Source: Emticicia sp. 21SJ11W-3
GTDB taxonomy: Bacteria; Bacteroidota; Bacteroidia; Cytophagales; Spirosomataceae
Assembly: GCF_024138715.1 (NCBI RefSeq)
Contig: NZ_CP092074.1
Location: forward strand, 3,286,001-3,350,000
Length of the DNA stretch: 64,000 nucleotides
Reading direction: 5' to 3'
Part shown: one piece after another, positions 37,049 to 40,527 of the stretch
Layout of the letters: every line of letters begins with the position of its first letter
Numbering within the stretch: position 1 is the stretch's first letter
Notes under the pieces: generated by a model
Told to the model about the DNA's origin: nothing
The model's input: the letters and a program-made list of their open reading frames with translations, nothing else
Database searches by the model: none
Position numbers and translations under genes: made by a program

Positions 37049-37198
37049 ATGAGCTTAGAACAGACCAAAACCGGTCATGAGTCACCAGCCATGAACCCCA
37101 AAAAGAAATGGGTAAAACCGCAAATGGAGGTACTCAAAGTTAACAGTGGAATTGTAATCCTTCCGATTGAAATAATGGGTATTCAGGGACCAAGTTAA
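37049..37198 (+). CDS. Lasso-like peptide precursor 1
   Basis: A 49-residue open frame, starting ATG after an A-rich leader. The middle shares KKKW-V-K-P-Q-M-E-V-L with the other precursors, the W/Y-x-x-P-x-L recognition pattern of lasso leaders. The C terminus, after VNS, is GIVILPIEIMGIQGPS: Gly1 and Glu8 are set for an 8-residue ring, the spacing needed for a Gly-Glu isopeptide bond. It is followed by a terminator and faces the convergent cyclase gene. Inference rests on pattern agreement with three neighbours; no processing enzymes other than the cyclase are seen. Confidence 0.7.
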   Translation: MSLEQTKTGHESPAMNPKKKWVKPQMEVLKVNSGIVILPIEIMGIQGPS

Positions 37199-37222
37199 TT
37201 TAGCAGCAAGAAATAAATAAAC

Positions 37223-37262
37223 TTAAACACTCGGCATACTTTATGGCATAAGTGTTTTTTTT
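37223..37262 (+). terminator. Terminator between precursor 1 and the cyclase
   Basis: AAACACT (37225-37231), loop, AGTGTTTTTTTT (37251-37262). Stem of seven pairs plus T-run; ends the precursor transcript, with the cyclase gene converging from the right. Confidence 0.7.
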
Positions 37263-37342
37263 TGCTGCCACCGTGCTAAAAAAAACTTTAGCAGGTAACT
37301 TAAACAACATTCGTTCAGGTTTAAACAATTATCTACCCCCAC

Positions 37343-39166
37343 TTAATTTGCTTTTGCAGGCATATATTTGTTAACAAAGTAGTCTATGTAGTAATAATTA
37401 AGCCTCATTAACATATCCATCAGGTCGGCATCTGGCGCCAGCCGTTTATCGGGCAACATCATTTGCAGAGGGTCTGTAACCTGGTAAGTCTTCAGGTCTT
37501 CAATGTTTTTTTTCTTCCAGTATTCGGCAAATGCCAGTGTCATGGCTCCGCTAAACTTCGGTTGCAGCCTTACGGTATCGGGCAGCATATCTTTGCACAT
37601 ATTTCTGAAAAGCGCACGGTTATAAGTAGCAGGGGCAAACATTTCTACAGGCAGACTATACGCCAACCTGACTAAACGTATATCGGCCATCGGATACACC
37701 GTTTCCATGCCATGTGTAAGGGCATACGCACCTTCAGACTCTGTCCGGTGGCAGGTATGCGGGCGGGTTATCTGTTCTTTAAACCATTTTTTAAATGTAG
37801 GATAAAACAAAAAACTTTCGTCTTTCAGCTGCTGATGCCAGGGGCTGTCGGCCCGTAGCAGGTTTCTGCCCTGCTGTATTTTATCATAGCCCTTTACAAG
37901 AGAACCCCGCCATCTGGCCCGCAGGTAATCAAGCATTCTTTTGGGGCCACGTAGCGGATATTTCATAAAGAACCTGCATATAGCCGGAATATCAAAATTC
38001 CCGAAATACTCATAATAATAGTTACTTCCGGAGCATGATATCCCTTCGTCGCCCGGGAAACCGCTCATCATCACACCCACGTTATCGGCCGAGGCCGTCT
38101 TGAACAGCGAGTCCTGCCACAGGCAGTCAGAGTTGGCAAACCCACCCATTACCAAATCGGTGCGCTCCAGTTGCTCATATACATCTTTAAAATGAAAATC
38201 ATCTATTTTATGATGATTCTGCGGCAGCAAGCCGGCATAATCAATAATGGCTTGTTGTGTTCCCTGTTCGTCAATACCCCTCTCTGAATACGGCCGTGTT
38301 TTGTCAGACAACACAAATGAGTACGTATGCAGGCGTTGTTTAGGGATGTTTCTGGAAAGCAAAACCGCAATGGCCGACGAATCTAACCCACCGCTTAGCT
38401 GGCAACCTACGTTTTTGTACGTGCGGGCGCGGCATACCACTGCTTCGGTAAAACGCCTGTTGAGCTCTGTATACAATTCGGCCTCGTTCCTGAACCCCGA
38501 TATATCCTCGGCCTCCAGCTCCCAGTATCTGGCGGTTTCAAACATTCCCCTTGCCGTATCTGCCAGCGCATAGTGCGCAGGCAAAAACCGGTGTATATTC
38601 TCAAACAAGGTGGGCGCGTAATCCTGCACATAATTTTTAAGCTCAATGGCTATGTAGCGCTGGTTCAGCACAGGTGTAATAACTGCCTTGATGGCCTGCA
38701 TGGTGGTTGAAAAAACCAGCTTTTGGGTATCCTGATAATAAAACAGCGGCCTGATACCCAGTTGGTCTTTAGCCATAAAAAGCGTGCGGGTGTGGGTATC
38801 CCATACCACAAAAGAGAAGTCGCCCACGAGATGCTTCACACAGTCTTTACCAAACTTAATATAGGCTTCCAGCAGATACGTATAATCGGTAAGGGTTTCG
38901 CTAAGGCCTAGCTTTTGTGCCAGTTCAGGGCGGTTATCCAGCCTGCAAGTAGCCACCAGCACATAACGTTCATTGCGGCAAAGCTGGGTTTGCCCAACCG
39001 ATTCGGGCGTAATAAATACTATATCATTGGCTAAAACCGCCTCTGCCGATTGATAATCAACGTGGGCGTCGGCCTTGAAGAATTCCATGCTTTTCTGCAT
39101 CTGATGGTAGATGCCGGTAGCGTCAAAATCAGATGAAAGGCTTATGCAGCCCCAGTAGTGACTCAT
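37343..39166 (-). CDS. Asparagine-synthetase-like protein, candidate lasso-peptide cyclase
   Basis: A 607-residue protein with the two-domain AsnB fold. The N-terminal glutaminase-type domain begins MSHYWGCISL: cysteine is at position 7, not at position 2 where AsnB needs it as nucleophile, so glutamine hydrolysis is unlikely. This mirrors McjC-type lasso cyclases. GDFSFVVWDTHTRTLF and DQLGIRPLFYY are the usual glutaminase-domain strands. The synthetase domain has the PP-loop SGGLDSS (258-264), with RRFTEAVVCRART upstream. It adenylates a Glu/Asp side chain in the cyclases. Start: the ATG at 39164-39166 begins the fold; a longer frame adds 37 hydrophobic residues without role. Flanked on both sides by precursor peptides. 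Confidence 0.8.
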   Translation of the reverse strand: MSHYWGCISLSSDFDATGIYHQMQKSMEFFKADAHVDYQSAEAVLANDIVFITPESVGQTQLCRNERYVLVATCRLDNRPELAQKLGLSETLTDYTYLLEAYIKFGKDCVKHLVGDFSFVVWDTHTRTLFMAKDQLGIRPLFYYQDTQKLVFSTTMQAIKAVITPVLNQRYIAIELKNYVQDYAPTLFENIHRFLPAHYALADTARGMFETARYWELEAEDISGFRNEAELYTELNRRFTEAVVCRARTYKNVGCQLSGGLDSSAIAVLLSRNIPKQRLHTYSFVLSDKTRPYSERGIDEQGTQQAIIDYAGLLPQNHHKIDDFHFKDVYEQLERTDLVMGGFANSDCLWQDSLFKTASADNVGVMMSGFPGDEGISCSGSNYYYEYFGNFDIPAICRFFMKYPLRGPKRMLDYLRARWRGSLVKGYDKIQQGRNLLRADSPWHQQLKDESFLFYPTFKKWFKEQITRPHTCHRTESEGAYALTHGMETVYPMADIRLVRLAYSLPVEMFAPATYNRALFRNMCKDMLPDTVRLQPKFSGAMTLAFAEYWKKKNIEDLKTYQVTDPLQMMLPDKRLAPDADLMDMLMRLNYYYIDYFVNKYMPAKAN

Positions 39167-39680
39167 TGTGTACGGGTTGTGTATGACAATTTGAAAAGTT
39201 GGCAAAATAACTAAAACAAAACCATTGTTAAAACTGCCAGCCAGCAAAATGACTAAGAGGTACCAAAATATACACAATTGCCTTTATCAATTGTTTGCCT
39301 GGCCTTATGGCAATATATTTCCCACCTCCACTGCACTTTGGTAATGGCGCCGTTCAATAATTTTTTAACCTTTTAGTAACTTATCACCCGGGAATATTTT
39401 TGAATTTTTAAAACCATTTCGCATTTTTACGCCCCGGTACGCTCAAGAAAACCGCTGTGAATGTTTAATCCACTCAATCACTCTTTCTTTCTACCGCCCA
39501 TAATTAATTATTCGTCAATGGCTGATTGACGGATACATAAGTAAGCACAATTAATAATTAACAGAGAATCTACCCAAAAAAATGAAGACCGTTTTCTGTA
39601 TTCATCCATCTCCATTTTTCAATTACCAGCTAATTCGTTACGTAAACCAACAACATTAACTTATAATCTACCAAAAAAAA
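39167..39680. promoter_or_regulatory. Divergent promoter region between cyclase and precursor 2
   Basis: No gene. Includes inverted repeat CGTCAAT-GGCTG-ATTGACG (39513-39531), a possible operator between the divergent cyclase and precursor genes, and the first copy of the 5' leader cassette (CAATTACCAGCTAATTCG from 39620 on), which is repeated before precursors 3 and 4. Confidence 0.55.
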
Positions 39681-39833
39681 ATGAAGAAAGAACCAACCAA
39701 AAAACACAACAACATAGCTAATGCTAGAGGAAAGAAAACATGGATAGTACCCAAAATGAGGATTTTGGCTGTCAATAATGGAAGTATAAGAGATATTAAT
39801 GAAAGTGGAATTTATAACAATGATCTTTCATAA
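39681..39833 (+). CDS. Lasso-like peptide precursor 2
   Basis: A 50-residue frame: leader MKKEPTKKHNNIANARG, then KKTW-I-V-P-K-M-R-I-L and AVNN, then candidate core GSIRDINESGIYNNDLS with Gly1 and Glu8. Preceded by a leader cassette (CTAATTCGTTACGTAAACC) shared with precursors 3 and 4. Differs from precursor 3 only in the N-terminal part of the leader. If processed, cleavage would fall after Asn-Asn. Usual Thr at position -2 is absent, which is the main doubt. Confidence 0.7.
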   Translation: MKKEPTKKHNNIANARGKKTWIVPKMRILAVNNGSIRDINESGIYNNDLS

Positions 39834-40035
39834 ACTTTAAAAATTTATTCTGGCATAATAAACCGGGGCTAACTCAAAAGTTTTTGGTCGGCCCCATGCT
39901 TGACTATGAATGTACTGGTCTGGTAAAGGTGTGGCTTACTGAACACTGTTTCTGTATTCATCCATCTGTATTTTTCAATTACCAGCTAATTCGTTACGTA
40001 AACCAACAACATTAACTTATACTCTACACAAAAAA

Positions 40036-40188
40036 ATGAAAAAAGAACCAACCAAAAAACACAACAACATAGCTAAAGCTAAAGGAAAGAAAACATGGAT
40101 AGTACCCAAAATGAGGATTTTGGCTGTCAATAATGGAAGTATAAGAGATATTAATGAAAGTGGAATTTATAACAATGATCTTTCATAA
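40036..40188 (+). CDS. Lasso-like peptide precursor 3
   Basis: A 50-residue frame. Leader MKKEPTKKHNNIAKAKG differs from precursor 2 at two residues; the rest (KKTWIVPKMRILAVNN) and the candidate core GSIRDINESGIYNNDLS are identical. A recent tandem duplicate of precursor 2, which would raise peptide dose without new chemistry. Conserved core and unconserved leader N terminus are consistent with a functional peptide. Confidence 0.7.
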   Translation: MKKEPTKKHNNIAKAKGKKTWIVPKMRILAVNNGSIRDINESGIYNNDLS

Positions 40189-40392
40189 ACTTTAAAAATT
40201 TATTCTGGCATAATAAACCGGGGCTAACTCAAAAGTTTTTGGTCGGCCCCATGCCTGACTATGAAAGTACTGGTCTGGTAAAGGTGTGGCTTGCTGAATC
40301 CAATTTCTGTATTCATCCATCTGTATTTTTCAATTACCAGCTAATTCGTTACGTAAACCAACAACATTAACTTATACTCTACCCAAAAAGAA

Positions 40393-40527
40393 ATGAAAAC
40401 CGTACACACCACTAAAACTCCTGCTAAGAAAAAATGGCAAACACCAGTAATACAGAAAATTACTTTGAGAAGTGGCCCTGGCTATAATTACAGGGAAGAG
40501 TCTGAATACCACGTTCAAATATCCTAG
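40393..40527 (+). CDS. Lasso-like peptide precursor 4 (diverged core)
   Basis: A 44-residue frame behind the third leader cassette. Leader MKTVHTTKTPAKKKW-Q-T-P-V-I-Q-K-I then TLRS; candidate core GPGYNYREESEYHVQIS with Gly1 and Glu8 (Glu9 also possible). Retains the KKxW-x-x-P pattern but has a different core, as expected of diversifying precursor cassettes. A terminator follows at 40627. Confidence 0.7.
   Translation: MKTVHTTKTPAKKKWQTPVIQKITLRSGPGYNYREESEYHVQIS

Follow-up and report, generated by a model that had tools for sequence, protein, structure and literature searches.

The question raised by this locus is how peptides with the hallmarks of lasso precursors might be matured when their gene neighborhood supplies a cyclase and no enzyme that would recognize or cut the leader. 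The locus lies in a 64,000-nucleotide stretch of the genome of Emticicia sp. 21SJ11W-3 (contig NZ_CP092074.1, positions 3286001-3350000; this whole stretch is termed the window) and comprises four short open reading frames, which are the predicted precursors, and a gene for an AsnB-like cyclase. Positions in the peptides are given as W+n, with the leader Trp counted as 0. The genes are, in coordinates of the window:

37049-37198, plus strand: putative lasso precursor 1, 49 amino acids (aa), ATG start, leader ...KKKWVKPQMEVLKVNS, core GIVILPIEIMGIQGPS, with Gly at W+13, Glu at W+20 and a C-terminal Ser.

37343-39166, minus strand: AsnB-like lasso cyclase, 607 aa, beginning MSHYWGC, with no Cys at position 2.

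39681-39833, plus strand: putative lasso precursor 2, 50 aa, ATG start, core GSIRDINESGIYNNDLS.

40036-40188, plus strand: putative lasso precursor 3, 50 aa, ATG start, a near-copy of precursor 2 with an identical core.

40393-40527, plus strand: putative lasso precursor 4, 44 aa, ATG start, core GPGYNYREESEYHVQIS.

Judged by their sequences, the four precursors and the cyclase very probably make lasso peptides. We consider it likely that they constitute a satellite locus, in which an RRE (B1) and B2 peptidase pair encoded at about 919 kb of the same genome would recognize and cut the leaders in trans, and the cyclase of the window would join Gly1 to Glu8 of cores that are preceded by Trp at -13 and lack Thr at -2.

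All four precursors display a KKxWxxP leader motif, followed after nine residues by Gly and after six more by Glu, as an earlier note on this DNA had reported for four frames of 44-50 aa. Among the 439 small frames of 30-80 aa in the window KKxWxxP is found in four, and the extended KKxWxxP-x9-G-x6-E pattern in the same four; 60 dinucleotide shuffles of the window gave a mean of 0.13 for the former (maximum 1) and 0 for the latter. As precursors 2 and 3 are near-copies with the same core, these represent three independent precursor sequences rather than four. The [Y/W]xxP leader motif of lasso precursors is thus present in all four peptides. In lasso peptides a small residue 1 is joined to an Asp or Glu at position 7-9, and the Gly1-Glu8 spacing of each of the window precursors agrees with this rule. 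If the core is read from W+13, the residue at -2 is Asn, Asn, Asn and Arg, respectively. The earlier note had flagged the missing Thr(-2), and it is indeed missing, as it also seems to be in other precursors of the genome; however, this is less odd than was claimed, because the accessible part of PMC10368454, in which Thr(-2) is ascribed to all earlier lasso precursors, presents new precursors with Ile or Val at this position and a Gly1-Asp8 ring.

The same register recurs in related peptides. In a set of 15 distinct precursors, which includes two from about 700 kb of the same genome and one from G100:C7, and omits precursor 3 (its core being that of precursor 2) and two L093 peptides beside another RRE of that locus, Gly stands at W+13 in 13 members and Ala in the other two, and Glu occupies W+20 in 10. 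Upon permutation of the cores the W+20 count was reached in 0 of 20,000 trials for Glu, and in 1 of 20,000 if either acidic residue, Asp or Glu, was accepted. Read from W+13, residue -2 is Asn in 7/15 and Asp in 2/15.

The cyclase contains Asn_synthase (95.7 bits) and glutaminase-like GATase_7 (76.3 bits) domains of Pfam and retains all the invariant columns of a six-sequence cyclase alignment, including the SGGxDSS motif. Its lack of Cys2, already pointed out in the earlier note, is shared by the other members of its clade: by the start codons taken, none of the 7 full-length clade cyclases possesses this residue, which argues against retention of glutaminase function. It scores 173.9 bits against the asparagine synthase model TIGR01536, below the cut-off of 267.1. 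A plain asparagine synthetase was accordingly rejected as the identity of this gene. In a maximum-likelihood tree of 20 rows it falls within a clade of eight (support 100/100), together with G127, two sequences from G100, G145, L093 (an uncultured Bacteroidetes bin), and L094 and L095 (Algoriphagus). The sister row of this clade (100/100) is the 921-kb cyclase of the same genome, in which the window cyclase is the sole member of its clade.

Searches in relatives linked the register to this clade. A contig search with the window cyclase alone as query recovered no relatives, but one based on the cyclase alignment recovered 228, of which the best 80 were kept as 79 loci; among these, eight loci show 43-55% identity, four of them already known from an earlier search, and the other 71 show 32% or less. 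AsnB and lasso cyclases were not separable by score across the family. A precursor with Gly at W+13 occurs in seven of nine clade cyclase loci (the eight tree rows and L091, which with 51% identity lies outside the 20-row tree), with Glu at W+20 in six of the seven and at W+19 in G145. The short contigs of L024 and L091 gave zero and two WxxP frames, respectively, neither of the two with Gly at W+13. In the family search, 13/222 genomes had a precursor match, and Gly at W+13 was found in all four genomes with a clade cyclase vs none of the nine others (Fisher p 0.0014); the profile was built partly from clade members, so that detection leans to them, but the W+13 residue was unused in picking the matches. 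Of the 28 matches, one (L075 of G100, with Gly at W+13 and Glu at W+20) escaped the scoring at W+13, G100 being counted through another precursor. In the nine other genomes, the additional WxxP peptides of their loci all lacked Gly at W+13. Related frames lie beside cyclases of the same clade in other organisms, and precursor 1 is convergent with the cyclase gene, as are its counterparts in L021, L023 and L003.

The clade loci L021 (G100:C22), L022 (G145:C1), L093, L094 and L095 each encode both an RRE and a B2 peptidase, all ten proteins exceeding the Pfam cut-offs (PF05402, 41-49 bits against a cut-off of 23.4; PF13471, 41-84 bits against 26), with the B2 of L093 being the most divergent of these at 21-26% identity. 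For G127, L024 and L091 the contigs measure 4.2 kb at most, so that these loci are uninformative on gene clustering, in either direction. Thus, among the six clade loci with enough flanking sequence, it is only in the window that both genes are absent: it yields no match to the RRE model PF05402 nor to the B2 models PF13471 and NF033537, in keeping with the earlier note.

The genome, a single contig of 5.18 Mb estimated to be 99.94% complete, nevertheless encodes such proteins elsewhere, and the proposal in that note of a diverged or split system proves right on both counts. None of the refuting outcomes named there was observed: such genes exist in the genome, the frames have relatives next to cyclases of the clade, and the full-length cyclases of the clade lack Cys2. 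Four RREs over the Pfam cut-off and two B2 matches were recovered genome-wide; one of the latter, at 3.6 Mb, is broken by a stop codon and falls under the NCBIfam cut-off. The sole uninterrupted B2, which passes both PF13471 and NF033537, is at 919 kb, in a neighborhood that also contains an RRE, a sulfotransferase, a kinase-like gene, a cyclase and a precursor. This RRE/B2 pair lies 2.4 million bases from the window locus. Its RRE is 50% identical to that of G145 and 52% to that of G100, vs 19-26% to the three remaining ones, and in the PDB it matches TfuB1, an RRE of a lasso pathway, and 9x90, an RRE of the paeninodin type (E 0.00028 each). The B2 is likewise 50 and 51% identical to the full-length B2s of G145 and G100, and the 919-kb precursor has a WVKPxM motif in common with precursor 1. 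The genome harbors six cyclase-like genes vs this one uninterrupted B2, and stands out within its genus in cyclase matches: with the window cyclase as query (E <=1e-15), ten other members of the genus gave two matches in G105, two in G100, one in G103 and none in the remaining seven.

From these associations we infer a pathway with the following steps. An RRE encoded elsewhere, most likely that at 919 kb, would bind the WxxP leader of each precursor; the B2 cysteine peptidase beside it would cut just ahead of W+13, releasing Gly1; and the window cyclase would activate Glu8 and couple it to the amine of Gly1, generating an eight-residue ring around the threaded tail. Before this cut, a kinase like that at 919 kb would probably phosphorylate the C-terminal Ser. 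The window yielded no kinase partner, so that phosphorylation too would occur in trans. A Ser is C-terminal in 16 of the 17 WxxP peptides counted in the genome, and according to the accessible part of PMC9266682 lasso kinases target a C-terminal Ser, in paeninodin on the precursor. Independence of the early steps from the cyclase has precedent in PadeB1 and PadeB2, which work independently of PadeC (PMC5067487, in the portion accessible).

Orphan precursors provide the strongest case for maturation in trans, albeit an indirect one. Two of them are at 700 kb beside sulfotransferase-like genes; both have Gly at W+13, and Glu is at W+20 in the one but at W+19 in the second. Judging by the frames read there and by the genome-wide matches, no cyclase, RRE or B2 lies in these 20 kb. 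As the only member of its clade in the genome, the window cyclase is the most likely enzyme for these peptides, and by this sequence criterion probably serves them too. Similarly, the 12 kb read at the precursor of G100:C7, which is 1.1 kb from the edge of its contig, contain no cyclase. This precursor is identical in its first 29 residues to that of G100:C22, from which it differs in the core. We tentatively extend this, with our judgment leaning slightly against rather than for it, to a distributed lasso factory, in which a single 919-kb RRE/B2/kinase module would mature the precursors of dispersed satellites (those of the window and of 700 kb, and perhaps more), and six separately diversified cyclases would each read their own register, the present clade using a new, short leader in which Trp is at -13 and residue -2 is mostly Asn.

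Other lasso-related loci of the genome were noted in passing. That at about 3616 kb (L004, 9592-11630) is a second lasso cluster, in which, by eye, the broken B2 gene is followed by a transposase-like gene. At about 2969 kb (L027, 5748-10219) two precursors, a cyclase and kinase-like and sulfotransferase-like genes occur, and the 20 kb read gave no match for either RRE or B2; this is apparently another split lasso locus, whose cores, by eye, would be G1-D8 with Ile at -2. At about 3202 kb (L028, 9021-11008) a long-branch cyclase adjoins a single WxxP precursor, and here too neither an RRE nor a B2 was matched within the 20 kb read.

Compared with an ordinary lasso cluster, the window is supported by the clade of its cyclase, by its leader type and by its register, and lacks B1, B2, Thr(-2) and scores over the curated cut-offs. 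Several observations weigh against a satellite lasso locus. The window cyclase attains 237.2 bits against the NCBIfam lasso cyclase model NF033535, short of the cut-off of 525. Five cyclases from other lasso loci (L003, L021, L022, L094 and L027) also fail it at 234-349 bits, so that this cut-off does not separate here. Precursor 1 matches the paeninodin precursor model NF033524 at 12.2 bits (cut-off 27) and in the leader only, and precursors 2 and 4, the other two of the three distinct precursors scanned (precursor 3 was left out), show no match. The 919-kb kinase-like gene has no Pfam match and scores 23.6 of the 200 bits set for HprK_rel_A. The 919-kb precursor is in another register, with Asn at W+13 and Ser at W+20, so that acceptance of the shorter window leader by its B2 is presumed. 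In five of the 15 precursors W+20 is not Glu: three have Glu and one has Asp at W+19, and the fifth, G145_c, has a core of just nine residues with Asp at W+18. Finally, W+10 is aliphatic (Val, Leu or Ile) in all 15, which allows a cut one residue earlier.

This last point defines the most serious alternative, namely the same system with an X1-Glu9 ring, which we regard as unlikely. Read from W+12, the cores would have Val, Leu or Ile at -2 in 15/15 precursors, like the published Ile/Val(-2) precursors, among which Ile(-2) has experimental support in BsfA (PMC10368454, accessible part). Residue 1 would then vary among Gly, Ser, Asn, Thr, Ala and Lys, whereas W+13 is only ever Gly or Ala. Moreover, in three further family genomes (L065, L067 and L068) W+13 is Ala and W+19 is Asp, which favors W+13 as residue 1. 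The Gly1-Glu8 cyclization proposed in the earlier note therefore appears fairly clearly the better of the two registers.

Somewhat less likely still is a decaying remnant, in which the RRE/B2 operon has been lost and the locus has no product. In L003 and L021 the site upstream of the cyclase holds kinase, sulfotransferase, RRE and B2 genes, and in the window it holds the precursor array; tblastn of 13 partner proteins against the window detected no remnant of an RRE, B2, kinase or sulfotransferase (best E 0.23); and the 3.6-Mb B2 shows that such a gene has been broken in this genome. However, all five frames of the window are open, the cyclase preserves its invariant columns, a related RRE/B2 pair exists in the genome, and the precursors have multiplied. 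Precursors 2 and 3 sit in a 355-bp tandem repeat, and the following repeats were delineated:

39672-39971, plus strand: 300-nucleotide unit with precursor 2 (repeat D1); its second copy, at 40027-40326, is 96% identical.

39593-39703, plus strand: 111-nucleotide repeat (repeat D2), the first of three copies, ahead of precursor 2.

39949-40059 and 40304-40414: the other copies of the 111-nucleotide repeat, ahead of precursors 3 and 4, with 86% and 83% identity to the reference copy.

The 111-nucleotide repeat is likely, from its placement, to be a common upstream region of precursors 2, 3 and 4. Precursors 2 and 3 show no differences in the 93 nucleotides that begin with the Trp codon and run to the stop, vs 8 in 147 non-coding nucleotides of the unit (Fisher p 0.025), a weak point against decay as this stretch was picked after the differences were seen; over the complete frame the comparison is 3/153 vs 8/147 (p 0.13).

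It is very improbable that the peptides belong to another class of ribosomally synthesized and post-translationally modified peptides, such as linear phosphorylated peptides (LPP), whose precursors likewise combine a [Y/W]xxP motif with a kinase (PMC13381572, accessible part), or that the AsnB-like gene is a metabolic asparagine synthetase, to which its TIGR01536 score might point, as that score is below the cut-off, Cys2 is lacking in all full-length cyclases of the clade, the cores have an acidic residue at a spacing suited to a ring, and the clade and the W+13 Gly co-occur.

A satellite lasso locus is most reminiscent of the paeninodin-type lasso peptides of Bacillota, with which it shares the WxxP leader, separate B1 and B2, the C-terminal Ser, the AsnB-like cyclase and the kinase-like gene that adjoins the clusters of the window's relatives. 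It differs from them in the Trp at -13 rather than -15, as given for PbaA in the accessible part of PMC13381572 (where RRE choice is said to be steered by WxxP vs YxxP), in remaining below the NF033524 cut-off, and in having four precursors with B1, B2 and the kinase outside the locus. The Bradymonas BsfA type, as described in the accessible part of PMC10368454, is alike in lacking Thr(-2) and in its Gly1 and ring of eight, but has Ile/Val(-2) rather than the Asn (7/15) or Asp (2/15) seen here if the core begins at W+13, and YxxPxL rather than WxxP, the spacing between aromatic residue and cut being four residues shorter here. The Emticicia and Algoriphagus-record loci L021, L022, L094 and L095 have the same cyclase clade and W+13 Gly, but unlike the window retain their RRE and B2. 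A leader protease encoded elsewhere in the genome is also known from lanthipeptides with unclustered proteases (PMC8960859, accessible part), although peptide class and enzymes are different. The LPPs (linear polyphosphorylated peptides) have the absence of a macrolactam cyclase gene as their criterion, and one is present in the window. In the titles and abstract beginnings of the open-access literature searched we found no description of this leader type or gene arrangement, of lasso peptides with such a leader from Cytophagales, or of lasso B1/B2 acting in trans.

Lasso mining usually seeks precursor, cyclase, RRE and peptidase genes side by side, and would miss or discard such split loci. 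If several cyclases and several precursor loci do share one RRE/peptidase pair, recognition of the leader would evolve separately from closure of the ring, and a genome could gain new cores cheaply. The W+13 register also provides a simple test of the tolerance of B2 peptidases at -2.

The leader motif extends beyond these peptides. KKxWxxP-like sites number 74 genome-wide against 33 in a reversed control, and inspection of all 74 by eye placed 16 in precursor-like frames. A seventeenth peptide, at 700 kb, has QKxW and is off this pattern, indicating that the WxxP inventory is incomplete. Five KKxWxxP peptides occur in a row at about 3209 kb (L028, 17018-18338), with a sixth at 3939.9 kb (L186, 401-544); these are in another register, none with Gly at W+13, and three of them contain LxLDP or LLDP toward the end; they might be linear peptides using a common RRE. 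Two peptides of G145 have similar LLDPLS or RDPLAS tails, as does L066. In three family members with genomes of about 3.1-3.2 Mb (G004, G013 and G005), WxxP peptides form tandem arrays (L069, L070, L072, L076 and L077), and many of these peptides have ADGGSK-like tails. Lastly, runs of phage tail collar domain proteins (PF07484, as judged from one protein scanned per run) lie beside three lasso loci of different genomes (L003, 14641-18455; L023, 1056-2131; L025, 12591-16327).

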